A program made the position numbers and the translations under genes. DNA of 25,747 nucleotides from a virus, in the IMG/VR virus record IMGVR_UViG_3300000101_000138, positions 1-25,747 of that record, one strand, 5' to 3'. Shown piece by piece: positions 16,392 through 24,561 of this stretch. Position 1 is the first letter of the stretch. Each line of letters starts with the position of its first letter. The notes beneath the pieces are model-generated. The model saw nothing but the letters and a program-made list of their open reading frames with translations. It ran no database searches and was not told the origin of the DNA.

Positions 16392-18302
16392 TTATACCCT
16401 GCTTGTAACTGTTACCGCATTTACCGAAGATTCCGAAGCGTCATATTGTAGTATTCCACTAAACCTTGGAGTGACAGCAGACTCGTTAGCAGGAATGCCG
16501 AAGACCTTAATATAGTTAGATTGGTTATTAGTATTTTGAACATTGAGACCTAGTATCTCAACCGCGCCAGTGAGTGGTTCATAGTATCCCATGTAGTCTT
16601 CCACTATCACTCCCTTGGCATTTACCAACTCCAACTTGTTCGATGGTTTCCTATCAAAAACTATTGGAACCACACCTTCACCAGAGACTTTAACTTTGTC
16701 GAGAAGTTTGTTTCTTATGTAAACATCTTGGTTTTGGTATTTAAAGAATCCGCTTCTAACAACTGGGGTCGTTAAGTCTTCTGGATTTTTAAGAGCAGAA
16801 CCAAATGTGAATTTTTGATTTTCGGGTAAGGTTAAAACAGGTATGATCCTCTTTTGCAGTAGTACATCTGTCCTTGAAGATAGAACAGACGGATCAGTAT
16901 CGTCAACTTCTGTTAGCAGATTAGACCTACGGAACACCTGTGCAAACTTACCGATATTTGACGTAAAGTAATTGGTGACAGTCCTCTGGACAGAAGCATC
17001 AACAACTGACTGACTGCTTGCACCAAGCAAGGGGTTGTATTGGTAAAACAACTTGGTAGAAACATAGGTTTCGCTTGGGGCAACGAACTTGATATCAAAG
17101 GATACTACAGAGAGTTCCTCAGTGAGTTGTGCTATTGATCTCCGCAGTTCACTGATAGCAGTACTACTCAGGTTATCCTTCCAGACAATTGAGGTGAATG
17201 TCGTTCCATACTCTGGTGGGAGATTGTCTTCTCCACCCCAGCAGATGATGTCAGTAATGAAGTTACCATACTTACGCAAGATGAGTGCTTCATAATCTAG
17301 AGGAGTCACCATACGATTCTGTGCAGAGTATTGGAACGGTGCTTTCTTCCGAATGGATTCGATGTCTTCTTTCTCAGTTCCACCAGCAGATGTTGTCAAG
17401 GTAGTTATTGAAACTTCATCGGGTCTAACTATGTACTCGCCCAGTTTCAAAGTGCTGATAAGTCTGAAGGTAGAAATTCCGTTTGCAGTTTGACCACTTG
17501 CGCGGAGATAGTTTACATCAACAACGTTTCCAGCGATGGGCGAAACACCCAAAGAATTGAATGCACCAAATGTCAACTCATAGAATTGGTTTGGGGACTC
17601 TCGCAAAACATACAAAGTTGATTGGTTTGTGATGGAAGACACATCGAATATGTCATTGTAAACAGTGTATGCGCCAACGCCAGTTGCAGCGACACCTGGG
17701 TCTGTGTAAACTTTGACGATAGCGGTACTTGCATCTATGTTCTGATCGGGTATTACATAAAGAGCATTTTCACTTCCGTCAACTAAGTATTGCTGTTCTT
17801 GTTCTTCTCCCTCGAAGACAACGATAGAGGCATCTGGATCGTCAAACGGATAGAAGGTGTAGATGTTTGTGCCTTGTGCATCTGCGGTTATGGTTTTTCG
17901 ATTACTGAAAGTGTAAACATCTCCATCGATACTTCCCCTAAGAACTAACTCCCCAGGTTGGAAGGAATAAACTTGATCGAAAGGATATCCACCAGAAGGT
18001 TGAATAGTGAGACCAACTGTTGCTTGTGAAGAGTTCCTACTTCCAGGGATGTATCCCAAAGTCTCTGCCAAAGATACGACAGAGTTTCTTAACTGGGCAG
18101 TCCCAAGATAGGATTCATTCAAAGCAAAGTTTGCAATGAGTCCACTGAAATGCGTGTTGTAGGAAAGCACATCCAGCAGACTGTTCAAACCAGAACCTTC
18201 AAAGTTGTAGTCTGAGAATGCTGCGTCTTGTTTAAAGAAGACCTTTAAATTAGACTTGATGTCTTGAAAGTCTAACTCTGTTGATGTAATAGTTGTTGCC
18301 AT
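16392..18302 (-). CDS. gp6: Baseplate wedge protein gp6 (Baseplate_J type)
   Basis: This protein of 636 aa is close to T4 gp6 (660 aa), which dimerises to form the inner ring of the baseplate. The N-terminus carries the family pattern LLDVLSYNTHFSGLIANFAL, then NESYLGTAQLRNSVVSLAETLGY. The middle has IRKKAPFQYSAQNRMVTPLDYE, then ILRKYGNFITDIICWGGED, the hallmark of gp6/gpJ-type proteins. No truncation or frameshift is visible. It begins one base inside the gp25 stop and ends 3 bases before the next gene, so all three wedge genes are likely one translation-coupled unit driven by the late promoter at 18847-18856. Confidence 0.93.
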   Translation of the reverse strand: MATTITSTELDFQDIKSNLKVFFKQDAAFSDYNFEGSGLNSLLDVLSYNTHFSGLIANFALNESYLGTAQLRNSVVSLAETLGYIPGSRNSSQATVGLTIQPSGGYPFDQVYSFQPGELVLRGSIDGDVYTFSNRKTITADAQGTNIYTFYPFDDPDASIVVFEGEEQEQQYLVDGSENALYVIPDQNIDASTAIVKVYTDPGVAATGVGAYTVYNDIFDVSSITNQSTLYVLRESPNQFYELTFGAFNSLGVSPIAGNVVDVNYLRASGQTANGISTFRLISTLKLGEYIVRPDEVSITTLTTSAGGTEKEDIESIRKKAPFQYSAQNRMVTPLDYEALILRKYGNFITDIICWGGEDNLPPEYGTTFTSIVWKDNLSSTAISELRRSIAQLTEELSVVSFDIKFVAPSETYVSTKLFYQYNPLLGASSQSVVDASVQRTVTNYFTSNIGKFAQVFRRSNLLTEVDDTDPSVLSSRTDVLLQKRIIPVLTLPENQKFTFGSALKNPEDLTTPVVRSGFFKYQNQDVYIRNKLLDKVKVSGEGVVPIVFDRKPSNKLELVNAKGVIVEDYMGYYEPLTGAVEILGLNVQNTNNQSNYIKVFGIPANESAVTPRFSGILQYDASESSVNAVTVTSRV

Positions 18303-18823
18303 TATCGTAACCTATTCATATTAACGTCAATACTGACAGTCTCGTTAGTGTTCAATATTACCCCAACCACTGTTATCATGATGGCGTATCTGCCCTCGCT
18401 TCCATAATTCCAGTAAGTCAAACTGGTAGCACCTTTTGGAACTTGCTTATTCGCTCCGATATCTGTGAAGATAACGTCTTCTACTCTAATCCTCGGTTCA
18501 AATTTCTTGATAGCATTTCGAACAACCTCGTCAATAATTGATTCAGAATAGTATTCTATGCTCTCAAACAAGAACGACCGTAGGTCTGCACCAAAGTCTG
18601 GTACAAAGGGTTTCTCATTTTTGTTGGTGAGAAGTATTGTGCTTACACTTTGTATGACTGCTGCAACGTCAACCTTCTTATAAACATCACCGCGCCTCAC
18701 ACCATCAGAGTCCACCGTTCCTATCTTTGGGAGGAACGCCAAGTCAATATCCTTGTAAAACTTCTGCTTCTTAGTTACGAGGGTCTTATCGGTAAGTCCA
18801 GGTGTTATTCTTCTTAGTGCCAT
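18302..18823 (-). CDS. gp25: Baseplate wedge protein gp25
   Basis: This is a gp25-type wedge subunit (GPW_gp25 family), which forms the wedge core with gp6 and contacts the sheath's first ring. The signature is at residues 70-87: EKPFVPDFGADLRSFLFE. It is followed by SIIDEVVRNAIKKFEPRIRV, typical of the family's helix and final strand. At 173 aa it is longer than T4 gp25 (132 aa), mainly through an N-terminal extension. Despite historical naming, the family is structural and is not known to be a lysozyme. It is the first gene after the late promoter at 18847-18856, and its stop overlaps the gp6 start as TAATG. The gp25-gp6 pairing is conserved across contractile tails, which supports both calls. 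Confidence 0.93.
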   Translation of the reverse strand: MALRRITPGLTDKTLVTKKQKFYKDIDLAFLPKIGTVDSDGVRRGDVYKKVDVAAVIQSVSTILLTNKNEKPFVPDFGADLRSFLFESIEYYSESIIDEVVRNAIKKFEPRIRVEDVIFTDIGANKQVPKGATSLTYWNYGSEGRYAIMITVVGVILNTNETVSIDVNMNRLR

Positions 18824-18862: not shown

Positions 18863-21187
18863 CTAGTCCGTTATCTCAACAAGGGAACCAGATTTTAACA
18901 TTTGTCTATTAAAATATGTGCAAACACTTTGTGCAAAAGTTGCTTTGAAGTCTTTCTTTATTTTTGGCATGACAACAAGTATCTGTTGACCCATAACATT
19001 ATCAGGTCTAGTAGTATCGTAGTCAAGACTCAGTTGGTCAAAGTTAAATGTATCTCTTATGTATAAGGAAACATCATACCCAGCACTGTAGTCAACCTTA
19101 CCGCGAGAGTTGAAGAGGGTGTATGCCACCGCCCGACCTTCATACTTCAGTTGGTTTATTGTGATAGCGCCTGGGACGATAGACTTCTGTGTGCCACCGC
19201 CATCTTCTGTGCGATAGGGTTCTCTCCAATAACGATTTCCAGAACCGTTGAACTGTTCACGGATACCGTTAGCGGGATAATAGAATGCCTCGGTGACTTG
19301 TAGTCGGTAGTTTGCAAACTGCTTAGAGGATGCAACTCCGTCCATCAGCATGGCGTGGAGATACCACTGTCGCGCTAGGTCTTGTCTATCGGTAATCAAG
19401 GGAATAAATTCAAGCGATGCCTTAGAACCTGCTGCACCCAAAAACTTTCCAACAGTCGAAGACCTTGACAGTTTGGTGCTGGAGTTGATAGGAGCATCGT
19501 GCTTATCAGGATTGTAAAGTGGATCAGCGAGGACAGTCTTAGACACTGGCTGGATTTTTGAAATGAATGTTTTAGACCTTCTCTCTACAGGGTTGCCCAT
19601 CAGGGTGTATCCAAACCTTGCGGATGGAGTCGCAGACCCCTCACGCTTCATTTGATAAGGTGCTTGAGGTGCTGGAATCTTATACTTGGGAGAGATTCGG
19701 TTCTCGTCCAGAAGAGTTGAGATACATTTCGGTCCGTCAGTCTGCATCTCTGGTGCAGTTGATGCATCGTTTGCACCGTCAATAGTTCTCAACTTAGAAC
19801 GAATCTCTCCAATGTCGGGAGTCCATTTAAAGTAATTACTATACCCGACCTTCTCACCCTCTCTTCCACATTTAGAAATCTTATCTTCCAAGAAAAAATC
19901 CTCGTCAACGCTCACATGACGAACTGCGAATGGCGAAACCTTATTCCAGACTTCTGCCCATTCTGGAGTGGCGATATATTGATCCGCACCGTCAGAGGTG
20001 GTCGCGCTAAAAGGATACTTCAATACAACATCTGGTGCGGGAACAGCGTCATCAAGATAACCATAGTATGGATTGTTTGATGGAACAACTGCGGCTGGTA
20101 TTGGTATAATTTGGTTACCAGAACCGACCGAAATAGCAACGGTTGAAGAGTTTGCGGTGGCAGAACTGGTCGCAAACTCTGCGTGGTTTGACACCACAGA
20201 ACTGTATGCCCACACTGCCTTTTCAGCATACAAAGAATTCTTCGCTTCTAATGCACAACCAAATAGCGAACCTTCAAAGGTTGCTTGTGACACACCAGCA
20301 TTATTGGCATAGTCCTTTGCCCCACTAAAGTTTGACCCAACGAACTGGAAATCCGCTCCACCGATTCGCCCCTTCTTTCCAGTCACCCTCGTATCTTCTG
20401 AGGATATGACCGCGACTTTACCAGAGGATGCGGTGAGATATTCGTATGCGGTAAGACGGACATGGCGCTTTGAGTTTACGATGAAATCGTTTTTGGTAAT
20501 GAAACGTAAGTCTTCCTTGGTGGCAATCTTTCTTTCGCCCACATGGAAGTCCAGAGTATCGCCATAGACTTTCACATCTTTGTTACCACGAACCACCGTA
20601 GAGTGGACATCGCCAGTTTCAGTAATGTAAGTTCCGTGTACAGAGTTGTTGCAGTTTGCACCGACATCAATGTTGTAGTTTCCGTTTACTCGGAGGTTGT
20701 AGTTTCCGTTTACAGTGAGGTTCATATCCCCATCGTAAACAACATCACCTCTGCCTTGGACGATGACGCTATGGTCAGCACCAACAACTTCAACACGGTT
20801 TGCTTTTGATACGATGACAACTGAACCGTCTGCTTTCATTTCTACGCCAGCACCTGTGTTGTGCTTGACGAGTATTCTTTCACCGCCTGGGGTGTCGTCT
20901 AACTCAAAGGAATGACCACTTGGAGTTTCGTTTGCTTGATTGAATGGAAATATTGATGGTGCTTGTAAAGGCACATCCAAGTTTACACCGAATGTACTAC
21001 CACCTATCCACAGACCGTTTACCTTTACACCACGCGCAACAGAACTTACAGAGTTTCCAAACCAGTTATCTCTTCGCGGATACTCACCAGTAGGGTCAGC
21101 CATGCCATCGGTAGGGATGCCATAGGTGTACTCTAGCGCAACGCCATTCGTATCCGAGAGTCGGTCTTGTATATTCTTACCTGTCAT
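18863..21187 (-). CDS. Tail spike needle, gp5 C-terminal type, with pentapeptide-like stretch and Hedgehog/DD-peptidase-like C-terminus
   Basis: Residues 28-40 (GMADPTGEYPRRD) match the T4 gp5 linker containing SDPTGQYPRR. Residues 87-110 (ETPSGHSFELDDTPGGERIL) match T4 METESGHIQEFDDTPGQERY, the start of the needle. Residues 133-220 hold about ten octapeptides of the gp5 VxGxxxxx type (TVNGNYNL, RVNGNYNI), which build the trimeric beta-helix; T4 has about 18. Residues 277-345 look loosely like pentapeptide repeats (ADFQF, SNFSG, ATFEG, SLFGC). Residues 575-745 resemble the Hedgehog/DD-peptidase fold: RLQVTEAFYYP, then LKYEGRAVAYT, compared with KLRVTEGW and LHYEGRAVDIT in Hedgehog. The metal-ligand His and Asp of that motif are Lys681 and Ala688. 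The OB domain that precedes the needle in T4 is absent; it lies in the protein at 23632-24561. The needle is confident, the C-terminal fold tentative. Ribosome-binding site is weak (TGGAT). Confidence 0.82.
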   Translation of the reverse strand: MTGKNIQDRLSDTNGVALEYTYGIPTDGMADPTGEYPRRDNWFGNSVSSVARGVKVNGLWIGGSTFGVNLDVPLQAPSIFPFNQANETPSGHSFELDDTPGGERILVKHNTGAGVEMKADGSVVIVSKANRVEVVGADHSVIVQGRGDVVYDGDMNLTVNGNYNLRVNGNYNIDVGANCNNSVHGTYITETGDVHSTVVRGNKDVKVYGDTLDFHVGERKIATKEDLRFITKNDFIVNSKRHVRLTAYEYLTASSGKVAVISSEDTRVTGKKGRIGGADFQFVGSNFSGAKDYANNAGVSQATFEGSLFGCALEAKNSLYAEKAVWAYSSVVSNHAEFATSSATANSSTVAISVGSGNQIIPIPAAVVPSNNPYYGYLDDAVPAPDVVLKYPFSATTSDGADQYIATPEWAEVWNKVSPFAVRHVSVDEDFFLEDKISKCGREGEKVGYSNYFKWTPDIGEIRSKLRTIDGANDASTAPEMQTDGPKCISTLLDENRISPKYKIPAPQAPYQMKREGSATPSARFGYTLMGNPVERRSKTFISKIQPVSKTVLADPLYNPDKHDAPINSSTKLSRSSTVGKFLGAAGSKASLEFIPLITDRQDLARQWYLHAMLMDGVASSKQFANYRLQVTEAFYYPANGIREQFNGSGNRYWREPYRTEDGGGTQKSIVPGAITINQLKYEGRAVAYTLFNSRGKVDYSAGYDVSLYIRDTFNFDQLSLDYDTTRPDNVMGQQILVVMPKIKKDFKATFAQSVCTYFNRQMLKSGSLVEITD
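20672..20719 (-). repeat. 24-bp tandem repeat coding gp5-type octapeptides
   Basis: Two adjacent 24-base units, alike except in their last 6 bases, encode consecutive VxGxxxxx octapeptides (VNGNYNL type) of the needle beta-helix. Neighbouring units on both sides are more diverged. Confidence 0.85.
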
Positions 21188-21204: not shown

Positions 21205-22752
21205 TTAAAAGTTCTCAAGTCCAGCGACCTGAGTATCCTTTTCAGTGATAAGTAACTCAGGGTCATCTATAGATGAGATGATTTCTTCGGGCGATTTTTC
21301 CGATTCACTCATCGGGTCAATGTAGAGACTTCGCTTGTTGAAAGCATTGTAAACATAATCACGAACCTCAAACCCAGGGTCTAATTGACTAAGGTCAAAT
21401 TCTCCGTGACCAAGTGCCTGACCGCCTGGAAACTGTACATAGAAAACACGGAACAGTTGGTGCAGTGTATTAAATTGTGTTCTTGTAATACTAGAAGCAC
21501 CAAGGTTTCCGTTAATCGCATCATCCCCACTAGCAACATTGACTCCACCAACGAGACAGATTTGTATGGAGTATGTATTATGTCCAGGGGATGCGCTGCC
21601 TGTACCATCCAAAGGCACACCCCTCTCCATAGAACCATCTCGCTTTATTATATAGTGGTAAGCATTGCTTCCCGCGCCTGTCAGTTGTTGCAGTTCTAAT
21701 CCTGTAAGATTTGCGTTGGTATATGTTTCAGACCAATGGACAATAACTTCTGATATGGGTCTAGTTATTGCAGACATCTCGCATTCAAGTTCTTCAACAG
21801 AAGAAACAAATCTTCCTCCTGCGGTCATGAATTGGTTGGTGTCTCCCGACTCAAACTCCCAGTTGCCGTCAACGCCTTTGAATTGTTTATCAGGAGGGGG
21901 TACGGGAATATTGAGATTGGGTGGATTGGCAGCAGTTATTACTATACCTTCAGCAGTGACAGTCGGAGTGGCGCTTGGAGTGGCGCTTGGAGTGCTACCG
22001 CCACCACCACCACCGCCAACTGTACCATCCCCAGGATTGACCGACTTTAATAGTCCATCTCCACCTGTCAGTTTATCAAACTCAGAATTAACTTCTGCCA
22101 TTTTCTCATCATACTCTTGCCTGATAGACTCAAGCGATCCTTCTCCAGAAGATGAAGTGTCTTTGCTGACAATTCCATTTGCCATACCAAAAAGTCTACT
22201 TGCTTTCAATGCCATTGACAAACCAGATTCGGTCTGCCCCGAAACAAAGGGAAGCATTATCCCAGAGACTTCAGAGTAAAGACCAAGAGCTGCGGTTCCA
22301 CCGTTCTCCATAAGAGACTGGGTGACTAGTCCAACCACTTTGGTTTTTATTTCTTGAGGAATATTGCCGTCTGTTAATGCTTGAATACCATTTTCAATAT
22401 ATGATGCCACTGTCGCCATACTAGTTACGATTTCCATTATCTGACTTATCTCATCACTCAGATCAACATATTTAACTATGTCTCCGATGCTTGCGGGTGG
22501 GTCTTTCAACGCATCAAGGAGGGGTAAGTTAAAATTCAACTCTGGTAGCGATGGCAAATCATTACCAACCAGATCATCAAGTGCTTGTGTAGGGTCAAGG
22601 TTTGGCACTTGCTCAAGTGAAATATTTGCATACACCTCATCAATATATGACGAAGGATTCAATGGTCCAGTAACAAGGTCTGCTGCTGCCTTGCTGTTGG
22701 TCATTGTCTCAGCAAGGAAGGTGTTCTGTGATGATGTATCTAGAATCGCCAT
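21205..22752 (-). CDS. Baseplate-associated N-acetylmuramoyl-L-alanine amidase, T7-lysozyme type
   Basis: Residues about 330-470 match Amidase_2/T7 lysozyme, zinc enzymes that cut the MurNAc-L-Ala bond of peptidoglycan. The segments ISEVIVHWSET, 'AYHYIIKRDGSMERG', 'YSIQICLVGG' and GHGEFDLSQLDPGF line up with T7 IFVHCSAT, GYHFIIKRDG, SIGVCLVGG and AHHEVAPKACPSF. Putative zinc ligands are His339, His448 and Asp458 (Cys130 in T7, Asp in AmpD). Tyr365 matches T7 Tyr46, but the Lys128 position is Gln456. Residues 1-230 are an unrecognised, largely helical domain (EIVTSMATVASYIENGIQAL) that may dock to the baseplate. Residues 240-265 are a flexible linker with seven Gly followed by STPSATPSATPT. 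The gene starts inside the upstream stop codon (TAATG). It probably supplies the wall-cutting activity that T4 keeps inside gp5. Confidence 0.85.
   Translation of the reverse strand: MAILDTSSQNTFLAETMTNSKAAADLVTGPLNPSSYIDEVYANISLEQVPNLDPTQALDDLVGNDLPSLPELNFNLPLLDALKDPPASIGDIVKYVDLSDEISQIMEIVTSMATVASYIENGIQALTDGNIPQEIKTKVVGLVTQSLMENGGTAALGLYSEVSGIMLPFVSGQTESGLSMALKASRLFGMANGIVSKDTSSSGEGSLESIRQEYDEKMAEVNSEFDKLTGGDGLLKSVNPGDGTVGGGGGGGSTPSATPSATPTVTAEGIVITAANPPNLNIPVPPPDKQFKGVDGNWEFESGDTNQFMTAGGRFVSSVEELECEMSAITRPISEVIVHWSETYTNANLTGLELQQLTGAGSNAYHYIIKRDGSMERGVPLDGTGSASPGHNTYSIQICLVGGVNVASGDDAINGNLGASSITRTQFNTLHQLFRVFYVQFPGGQALGHGEFDLSQLDPGFEVRDYVYNAFNKRSLYIDPMSESEKSPEEIISSIDDPELLITEKDTQVAGLENF
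21965..22020 (-). repeat. Linker microrepeats in the amidase gene
   Basis: On the + strand, ggagtggcgctt occurs twice in tandem (21965-21988), followed by a partial third copy and then a run of cca/ccg triplets up to about 22018. It encodes the SATPSATPT and poly-Gly linker between the N-terminal and amidase domains. Confidence 0.85.
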
Positions 22753-23600
22753 TACTTTAAGTCCAAAGGTGATATAAAGTCTTTGATGGATTTGATTCCA
22801 CCGCCCACATACTTAATGCCTTTGCTGACAAAGGGAGGAAAAGTTCCAGTTCTTATTGCGATGGCAGGCAGTAGTTCATCATACATTCCATTCGTATCTT
22901 CAAGTTCTTCCAGCATTGCCCCCACACTTACTGGTGCGCCTGAGTTCATTATGACCCAAGGGAAGTTGTTCCTTTCGTTGTTGAGATAATATATCTCGCC
23001 ATCATTTAATCCAGTCGGTTCAATCAATATGACATCCTCTGCGGGAAGTTCTACACCGCCAACTTCGAATATCATTGCATTGTAGAACCAGTCTGTTCCG
23101 TCATTTCCTCCAGTCGGGTCACCATCAACCCAGTCCCATTCGAACCCCTTTGCAATGTTGTCAACATAGACTGATGGGAGAAAGTAGGGTTGTACATAAG
23201 GGTCTTTGAAGTGTTGCTCATTGCTTTTTGAAACAGCATTGAACTCATCACCTTTTATTAAGTCTTTACCACCATCGGGTTTTTCGTAAGATGGTATTTC
23301 CATTTCACCTTGGATGTAAAGTATTCCCGTTCCAAAACTCAAATGGTTTATGTGCGGGACTTCTTCGGTTAGGGCAACCCATCCATCTTGCCTTGCAACG
23401 GTCTCTGGAGACTGGGGAACCAAGTTACCAAATCGTTCGTAATCTTTAAGAGAATACCTACCAACATTACTCAGGTTGTCTTCAAAGTATTTTCGAATCC
23501 TTTTAGCATGCGATGCATCCAACCCATCAAGGTCAGATGCTTTGTAGAGGTTAGCAACGCTCTTGTTTGCCTGAACCATATTTCTTGGTTTAAATGACAT
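22752..23600 (-). CDS. Unrecognised 282-aa protein in the hub/spike cluster
   Basis: I do not recognise this family. The protein is soluble-looking, acidic and aromatic-rich, with no evident signal peptide or transmembrane segment. The N-terminus is helical and charged (ANKSVANLYKASDLDGLDAS, HAKRIRKYFEDNL). The middle is Trp/Asp/Gly rich (GFEWDWVDGDPTGGNDGTDW). The C-terminus has a Gly-containing amphipathic tail (VGGGIKSIKDFISPLDLK). It is the first gene after a TATAAATAAA late promoter (23627-23636). Its stop overlaps the amidase start as TAATG, so the two are likely co-translated. Its place between the OB-fold and amidase genes suggests a structural or chaperone role in hub or spike assembly. 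That is inference from position only. Confidence 0.7.
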   Translation of the reverse strand: MSFKPRNMVQANKSVANLYKASDLDGLDASHAKRIRKYFEDNLSNVGRYSLKDYERFGNLVPQSPETVARQDGWVALTEEVPHINHLSFGTGILYIQGEMEIPSYEKPDGGKDLIKGDEFNAVSKSNEQHFKDPYVQPYFLPSVYVDNIAKGFEWDWVDGDPTGGNDGTDWFYNAMIFEVGGVELPAEDVILIEPTGLNDGEIYYLNNERNNFPWVIMNSGAPVSVGAMLEELEDTNGMYDELLPAIAIRTGTFPPFVSKGIKYVGGGIKSIKDFISPLDLK

Positions 23601-23626: not shown

Positions 23627-23636
23627 TTTATTTATA
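23627..23636 (-). promoter_or_regulatory. T4-type late promoter before the 282-aa gene
   Basis: The minus strand reads TATAAATAAA, containing the T4 late octamer TATAAATA at 23636-23629. It lies 29 bases before the ATG at 23600 and overlaps the stop codon of the preceding OB-fold gene. In T4 this element is read by the phage late sigma factor gp55 with a sliding-clamp co-activator. Confidence 0.8.
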
Positions 23637-24561
23637 TCGCGCCCAGACCACCATAAACACCAAGAGCAAGACCCTCTGCCTGACCTTTAGAGCATGAAGT
23701 TTCAGGATGGACAAAGTACTTGACAAGTGCAGCAACCATTCCATTACCCCTCTTATCGATGCCATCAATATTTTCCCCGTAGAGACTTCCTTCTATCTGT
23801 TCAGACATGAGGAGTTTAGAATAAGCAGTTTTCTGAGAGGTGTGAAGTTCTGTCATAACAAACATCAATTGAACATCCAGTTCATAGAAGTTCTTTGCTG
23901 GACTCAGTCTCTTGGCGTATGAGATGAACCTTTTGTATCTTGGAGAATCAACTGGATAACCTGCTATGCCTCCTGGTTTGGTAGAACTCAAACCGCTGAT
24001 TGCCATAAGCACTCCCGTCATTGAAGATGCCTGTTTTGCATTCAGTCCATTGTCAATAAAGAATCTCGCGACATCATTTTTATCTACCCTTGGTTGTGCT
24101 TGGACTTCAACAAAACTAAGTCCATCATCTGATTGAGTACCAAAATAAACAGGGTCTTGAACAGCAGCATTGGTTTGATCGAATATGAAAGCAAAGGGAT
24201 TTGTTGATATGTCTTCTCTTGATGCTGCTTGAACTGATGTTGGATACTCTATGTTTGGGAGGGAACCCAAGACCATCGGCAACTGTGATGAAGTCCCATC
24301 AAGGAAGATACCAAAGATCATTGCCCCTGGCAGTATCTGTGTGTTAACACCCAGACCAGAAACACCATATGAACTAGAAGGATTCATAACTTGCGCCCAA
24401 GGCAAATCTCTTTGTGGGATATCGTCTGTGTTCTGAGAGTGAACTCCAAAGACACGAACCTTTATTCTACCCTCAAGACCTGGCGGTGGTGAGGCATCGA
24501 TGCAGCGTCCCATAAACCATCGGACATTATCACCGTAAAACTCTGTTGGTATCGTTTTCAT
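23632..24561 (-). CDS. gp5-like OB-fold hub/spike protein with degenerate tail-lysozyme-like domain
   Basis: Residues 10-105 match the N-terminal OB domain of T4 gp5. 'NVRWFMGRCIDASPPPGLEG' followed by RIKVRVFGVH, then DLPWAQVMNP and GVSGLGV, parallels T4 NLNWFVGVVED, LGRVRVRVVGLH, KLPWMSVIQP and AMSGIGGSV. In T4 this domain plugs into the gp27 ring. Residues 157-295 look like the phage tail lysozyme family (Phage_lysozyme2): FFIDNGLNAKQASSMTGVLM, ISGLSS, GGIAGYPVDSPRYKRFISYA and DVQLMFVMTEL. The usual catalytic Glu of the 'GNLxxESG' motif is Ile188 here (MAISG, codon ATC), so lytic activity is doubtful. The needle part of gp5 is absent and appears to be encoded separately at 18863-21187. The stop codon overlaps a late promoter motif for the next gene. 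The OB domain is confident; the lysozyme fold is inference. Confidence 0.75.
   Translation of the reverse strand: MKTIPTEFYGDNVRWFMGRCIDASPPPGLEGRIKVRVFGVHSQNTDDIPQRDLPWAQVMNPSSSYGVSGLGVNTQILPGAMIFGIFLDGTSSQLPMVLGSLPNIEYPTSVQAASREDISTNPFAFIFDQTNAAVQDPVYFGTQSDDGLSFVEVQAQPRVDKNDVARFFIDNGLNAKQASSMTGVLMAISGLSSTKPGGIAGYPVDSPRYKRFISYAKRLSPAKNFYELDVQLMFVMTELHTSQKTAYSKLLMSEQIEGSLYGENIDGIDKRGNGMVAALVKYFVHPETSCSKGQAEGLALGVYGGLGAI

Follow-up and report, generated by a model that had tools for sequence, protein, structure and literature searches.

The needle protein encoded in the window (the whole 25,747-nucleotide stretch of viral DNA analyzed here, IMG/VR record IMGVR_UViG_3300000101_000138) most probably ends, at the distal end of the needle, in a dead M15-type domain spanning residues 549-774, which would derive from an active M15_3 endopeptidase domain borne by gp5 or PAAR proteins and be kept as a putative structural, docking or peptidoglycan-binding module (probability about 0.82). 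The computed evidence comprises an M15 fold, kinship with the M15 domains of gp5, loss of the metal ligands, purifying selection and complementarity with an amidase. An earlier note on this DNA had proposed that the needle protein terminates in a pseudo-enzyme of the Hedgehog/DD-peptidase superfamily, and this proposal is borne out by the fold, by a profile match, by the gp5 C-terminal position and by a family-wide loss of ligands.

The needle protein and its parts were mapped as follows.

18863-21187, minus strand: gp5-type needle protein, an ORF of 774 aa
20288..20962, minus strand: gp5-type trimeric beta-helix needle, about residues 76-300 (phrog_430, E 2.9e-26)
19544..20287, minus strand: variable linker from needle to pseudo-M15 domain, residues 301-548 (dN/dS 0.29)
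18866..19543, minus strand: pseudo-M15 domain, residues 549-774 of the needle protein (AlphaFold, Foldseek, hhalign)

PF22178 and PF06715 scored below their cut-offs on the beta-helix part. This gp5 beta-helix is encoded in a baseplate operon that also includes gp25 and gp6, the OB domain being on a separate ORF (23632-24561), and the carriers of the pseudo-M15 domain are a family of uncultured, apparently marine T4-like phages. The stretch first singled out, 18953-19465 on the minus strand, corresponds exactly to residues 745-575, and the domain extends beyond it, to residues 549-774 (about 18866-19543). The motifs described there are present as claimed, with RLQVTEAF at residues 628-635 and LKYEGRAVAYT at residues 680-690, some 45 residues apart, the latter containing Lys681 and Ala688 at the expected positions.

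AlphaFold2 modeling of residues 549-774, with 53 diverse relatives in the alignment, yielded a pLDDT of 86.1 and a pTM of 0.85. A first run with 8 close sequences had been poor (pLDDT 41), and the Foldseek list obtained from it is no evidence, though several M15/Hh entries appeared in it. Foldseek searches with the pseudo-M15 model against viral models (BFVD) returned nine matches at E <=1e-3, all with a probability of 1.00, headed by gp5 of Pseudomonas phage pf16 (E 8.4e-10) and by a nameless protein (3.7e-9), and including several "Peptidase M15A, C-terminal" and "Gp5 N-terminal OB-fold" proteins from uncultured phages. E-values for the top phage gp5 and Peptidase M15A proteins ranged from 8.4e-10 to 1e-4, and Foldseek TM-scores to the phage matches were moderate (0.43-0.56). 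Searches against the PDB yielded no significant match, in a list headed by the M15 enzymes LysB4 and Ply500 and with VanX at rank 6. The structure prediction and fold comparison proposed in the earlier note hence returned the alpha-beta fold of M15 peptidases.

Single-sequence searches with the domain against Pfam, PHROGs, the PDB and phage isolates did not return any match, and no Pfam family scored above its cut-off. The kinship was instead detected with family profiles. The C-terminus of pf16 gp5 is an M15_3 domain (PF08291, 24.0 bits, cut-off 23.2) with intact SQHLKGEAVD and WIH motifs, and a profile of the pseudo-M15 family searched against the whole pf16 genome produced a single match (E 0.01), located inside this Pfam-detected domain. 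In hhalign comparisons, the pseudo-M15 family aligned to 43 active phage M15 domains with a P of 7.7e-6 and a score of 42.6; reversed controls scored 14-17 and 100 column shuffles reached a maximum of 21.4, indicating a match beyond chance at twice the best shuffled score. Hh-N domains, which are true members of the superfamily, scored 30.2 against the same phage M15 set. In the hhalign alignment, EGRAVAY of the window pairs with KGEAVDI of pf16, and FDQLSLDY with YDQFLLEY; the alignment also defines an additional feature.

19022..19039, minus strand: residues 717-722, DQLSLD, matching the DQxxxE invariant in active phage M15 domains, with Glu replaced by Asp at 722 (hhalign, hmmsearch alignments, column counts)

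The pseudo-M15 domain also occupies, at the C-terminus of gp5, the position of the active M15_3 domain in pf16 and Melnitz. The closest kin of the window domain is thus the M15_3 endopeptidase domain at the gp5 C-terminus of pf16 and Melnitz. Sinorhizobium phage phiM19 encodes, beside gp5, a separate "peptidase M15" (gp98), which was considered as a parent and rejected, since it is a different protein and pf16 gp5 is a better match.

The sequence determinants of M15 catalysis were then compared between the two groups. The residues Ser80, Arg83, Ser89, Gln90, His91, Asp98, Asp123, Gln124, Glu128, Trp138, His140 and Ser142 (pf16 domain numbering) are invariant in the 43 active homologues, and ligand counts on the pseudo-M15 side refer to 53 non-redundant relatives, window domain included. 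The His, Asp and Glu positions were taken from the profile alignment, and visual inspection was used to locate the Arg and the last strand.

19145..19147, minus strand: Lys681, where M15 domains have their first zinc His (SQH-LKGEAVD in pf16); Lys or Arg in 53/53 relatives, His in 43/43 active homologues
19124..19126, minus strand: Ala688, in place of the zinc Asp; V33 G15 A4 Y1 and never Asp (n=53), Asp in 43/43 active homologues
19280..19282, minus strand: Tyr636, at the conserved Arg position of the SGYR/SAFR motif, in a register assigned visually, guided by the surrounding VT[ES]AF and by the AF2 strand; Tyr in 53/53 relatives, Arg in 43/43 active homologues

The catalytic Glu position holds Asp722 in 40 of the 53 relatives and Glu in 2 of them, and no His occurs at residues 734-740, the by-eye placement of the last strand and third zinc His, in any of the 53. 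Neither of the zinc-ligand motifs, SxHxxGxAxD and [WF]xH, was found in this set (0/53). The claim of lost metal ligands, drawn from the window protein, therefore extends to its whole family: His is replaced by Lys or Arg and Asp by Val, Gly, Ala or Tyr in every relative, and none of them keeps the His/Asp pair. Several polar residues do remain conserved (E/D633, Y636, R628, K/R681 and D724), as might be expected if the domain were still an enzyme acting through other residues or another metal site. The replacement of all three metal-ligand positions and of the conserved Arg in 53/53 relatives, together with a strand that should bear the last His and has none, makes such residual activity very unlikely. 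At the same time, the former active-site positions K/R681, Y636, Y689 and D724 are strictly conserved as new residues, and the conserved Lys/Arg at the metal-binding His position suggests that the active-site region may have been rebuilt around a positive charge.

The likeness to Hedgehog signalling domains was assessed by profile-profile comparison with Sonic hedgehog and six bacterial Hh-N domains. Membership in the Hedgehog/DD-peptidase superfamily stands, but Hedgehog is not the nearest kin, and the parent family is the needle- or PAAR-attached M15_3 endopeptidase of phages. Acquisition of a Hedgehog-type domain from a cellular source would agree with the YEGRAV and VTE spellings and with a weak profile match when 22 close relatives were used (P = 1.8e-4, Prob 49). 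This match weakened as relatives were added (P 0.014 with 53 relatives, 0.49 with standalone relatives, and an hhalign Prob of 3 with the full pseudo-M15 family) while that to phage M15 strengthened, and the best structural matches are phage gp5 and M15A proteins. Furthermore, the Pfam HH_signal model (PF01085) had no match in the window domain at E 10, and the Hedgehog-type His/Asp/His zinc site is absent from it. The EGRAV motif, whose conservation had been put forward as a check, is upheld only in part, with G684 (53/53) and R685 (48/53) kept and Glu683 (16/53) and the preceding Tyr682 (12/53) not. Likewise, the layout said to be shared with Hedgehog holds for topology but not for spacing, the two motifs lying about 45 residues apart as against about 12 in Sonic hedgehog; the extra stretch is a low-confidence loop in the AlphaFold model (pLDDT <50 at model residues 92-98 and 103-115). 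A cellular, Hedgehog-type origin is thus largely refuted and highly improbable, and the drop in score upon widening the family indicates that the YEGRAV spelling is a coincidence atop a true but remote superfamily link.

Hedgehog-like domains were also observed in bacteria. A protein of Pararhizobium gei plasmid p2 (103585-105977; L336:1001-1393), a conjugative plasmid, shares 53% identity with the N-domain of human Sonic hedgehog, in an alignment covering 94% of the 140-aa query. Further bacterial domains resembling Hedgehog-N, which contain HYEGRAVD and a VTE/ITE motif (L096, L105, L118, L120, L159 and L160), come from genomes of several phyla, including Micromonospora, Polyangiaceae, Proteobacteria, Anaerolineae and Bacteroidales.

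Searches with the domain alone as query identified no isolate phage and, in one scan of cellular genome contigs, no cellular relative. In IMG/VR, about 48 contigs presented the pseudo-M15 domain fused to gp5, and a standalone form emerged when contigs retrieved through their gp5 core were scanned with the profile of the domain. The standalone genes encode about 200-255 aa, lie directly downstream of gp5 and match with E-values down to 5e-36; in the three loci read in detail, their start codon overlaps the gp5 stop codon (ATGA), and a gp25-sized gene comes next. In total, 230 domain instances were collected before clustering, overlapping contig copies included, and these form 52 clusters. Phylogenetic analysis grouped the pseudo-M15 domains into a single clade, separated from the active ones at 100/100, although the two clades lie far apart and the tree program flags long branches. 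Within this clade, fused and separate forms are sister groups, with a long-branch fused member (L219) outside both, and the fused form is likely the older state. This divergent member (L219:5788-8538, 916 aa) carries an extra C-terminal domain beyond the pseudo-M15 domain. No pseudo-M15 domain was found near gp5 in Phage C48C1, the nearest isolate by gp6.

Loss of catalytic residues is also what a decaying relic without function would display. The dN/dS of the pseudo-M15 domain between the window and a related locus (L001) is 0.08, near that of the beta-helix (0.05) and far under that of the linker (0.29), and the domain is kept over some 230 matches (overlapping contigs counted) with strictly conserved replacement residues. 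The domain is hence under strong purifying selection and shows no decay, and this selection pattern refutes the relic reading, which we regard as having next to no probability. Since the catalytic residues were lost and strong selection was kept, the domain probably serves a new purpose, in binding or in structure, that involves no cutting.

The genomic context points to another candidate for the cutting activity, and the neighboring genes of the operon were annotated as follows.

21205..22752, minus strand: tail amidase of 515 aa, presumed active, with an Amidase_2 domain at 21376-21762 (PF01510, 36 bits, cut-off 26; phrog_822, E 1.3e-22)
23632..24561, minus strand: split gp5 N-terminal piece with an OB domain (PF06714, 32 bits, over the cut-off) and a weak Phage_lysozyme2 match
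18302..18823, minus strand: baseplate wedge gp25 homologue, the next gene after the needle (PF04965, 48 bits)
16392..18302, minus strand: baseplate wedge gp6 homologue (PF21379, 67 bits)

The H..H..DPG metal-ligand motifs of the amidase are visible in its sequence. An Amidase_2 gene lies just upstream of gp5 in all 18 pseudo-M15 records checked (18/18) and was found in none of the 19 records with an intact M15 peptidase, several of which are fragments in which absence is no proof; in the compared records, pseudo-M15 with neighboring amidase and active M15 are thus perfectly complementary. Peptidoglycan cutting is probably performed by the amidase of the next upstream gene, whose activity is presumed. 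The OB piece (23632-24561) seems to bear a second, separate lysozyme: its PF18013 (Phage_lysozyme2) score of 19.6 bits is under the cut-off of 28.2, and the same piece in a related locus (L220) reaches 40.8 bits. Between the OB piece and the amidase, the window encodes a 282-aa protein (22752-23600) with no Pfam or PHROG match.

PAAR tip proteins (phrog_281) were detected in 0/18 pseudo-M15 records and in 3/14 active-M15 records, PF05488 and phrog_281 missing most records, those with active M15 included. They are also found in Melnitz, where the active M15 domain lies on gp5 and PAAR is the next gene, and in Pseudomonas phage vB_PpuM-Peetri, where a protein annotated as PAAR only (L403:2988-3995) combines a PAAR tip protein and an M15 endopeptidase domain in a single chain. 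The presence of M15 on the PAAR tip protein or on a gp5 beside PAAR suggests that M15 domains are placed at the needle tip. In addition, the split gp5 OB piece of Melnitz-3 (L402:2437-3477) carries a VanY-like M15 domain, below the Pfam cut-off, suggesting that this phage may bear two different M15 domains on its hub.

These data are compatible with a scenario in which the ancestor would have been the active M15_3 endopeptidase that other T4-like phages bear, either at the C-terminus of gp5 or as a fusion with the PAAR tip protein. We infer that peptidoglycan cutting could have passed to the amidase, and to the lysozyme on the gp5 OB piece, with the M15 domain losing catalysis and its dead fold being retained at the needle end, as a module for structure, docking or peptidoglycan binding; its old active-site region may have been rebuilt round a fixed positive charge in place of zinc. 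The present role could well be structural, as a putative needle-end cap or docking platform that perhaps replaces the PAAR tip or anchors the amidase. The domain works both fused to gp5 and as a separate, translationally coupled product, resembling a non-covalent assembly partner, and the PAAR counts lean the same way, although PAAR detection is poor in this set, extending to most active-M15 records.

M15 domains recognize stem peptides, and it is possible, if doubtful, that the dead domain is a putative stem-peptide or cell-wall binding module, which would keep the needle anchored to the wall during cutting by the amidase. Its location at the needle end, beside peptidoglycan hydrolases, and the strict conservation of K/R681, Y636, Y689 and D724, as expected of a reused pocket, are in line with wall binding, but these residues may merely hold the fold or an interface, and the domain lacks the three ligands by which the substrate carbonyl is positioned. 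Structural or docking use is rated somewhat above peptidoglycan binding because the domain works also as a separate, coupled gene product. As a working model, we tentatively envisage a needle-tip pseudo-peptidase, with Lys/Arg in place of the metal His, that may serve as a recognition or docking module operating in trans with the amidase, either fused or as a separate tip protein.

The novelty lies in a family-wide pseudo-enzyme on the phage needle, its fold and parent being already known. No pseudo-enzyme of phage baseplates turned up in literature searches, and a review on pseudo-metallopeptidases has Sonic hedgehog as its sole M15 entry and mentions no phage (PMC11266112). If correct, our reading implies that pseudo-enzymes arise on the puncturing device of phages, with another lysin cutting and the old fold serving as a building or binding part. 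The Amidase_2 split (18/18 versus 0/19) makes the proposed hand-over directly testable, and a "tail lysozyme" label assigned by fold or synteny would be incorrect for the pseudo-M15 group.

Among known systems, the comparison centers on the C-terminal M15_3 endopeptidase of T4-like gp5, represented by pf16 gp208, Methylophilales phage Melnitz gp155 and Caulobacter phage Cr30 (phrog_430 positions 510-659). The window domain shares with it the gp5 C-terminal position, the fold, the DQxxx[ED] signature, the GxAV core and a similar tail past the last strand (TFFNHKK / TYFNRQ), and the OB piece is split off in the window as in Melnitz. Unlike this endopeptidase, the window domain has His/Asp/His, the conserved Arg and the catalytic acid all replaced, presents a longer insertion before the GxA motif and is accompanied by a separate tail amidase. 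The Peetri PAAR-M15 fusion resembles the window in placing an M15 domain on the needle tip, beside gp5, but carries it on the PAAR protein and not on gp5, with SQHxxGxAxD intact in the same family. The N-terminal domain of Sonic hedgehog, the pseudo-M15 of animals, belongs to the same M15/Hh superfamily; zinc ligands and zinc binding are retained in Hedgehog, whereas the window domain has none of these ligands. Sonic hedgehog itself is regarded as a non-catalytic reuse of the M15 fold (PMC11266112). Finally, the virion-associated Amidase_2 lysin of the same operon presumably fills the tail peptidoglycan hydrolase role that M15 domains fill in other phages, with an unrelated fold and from a separate gene.
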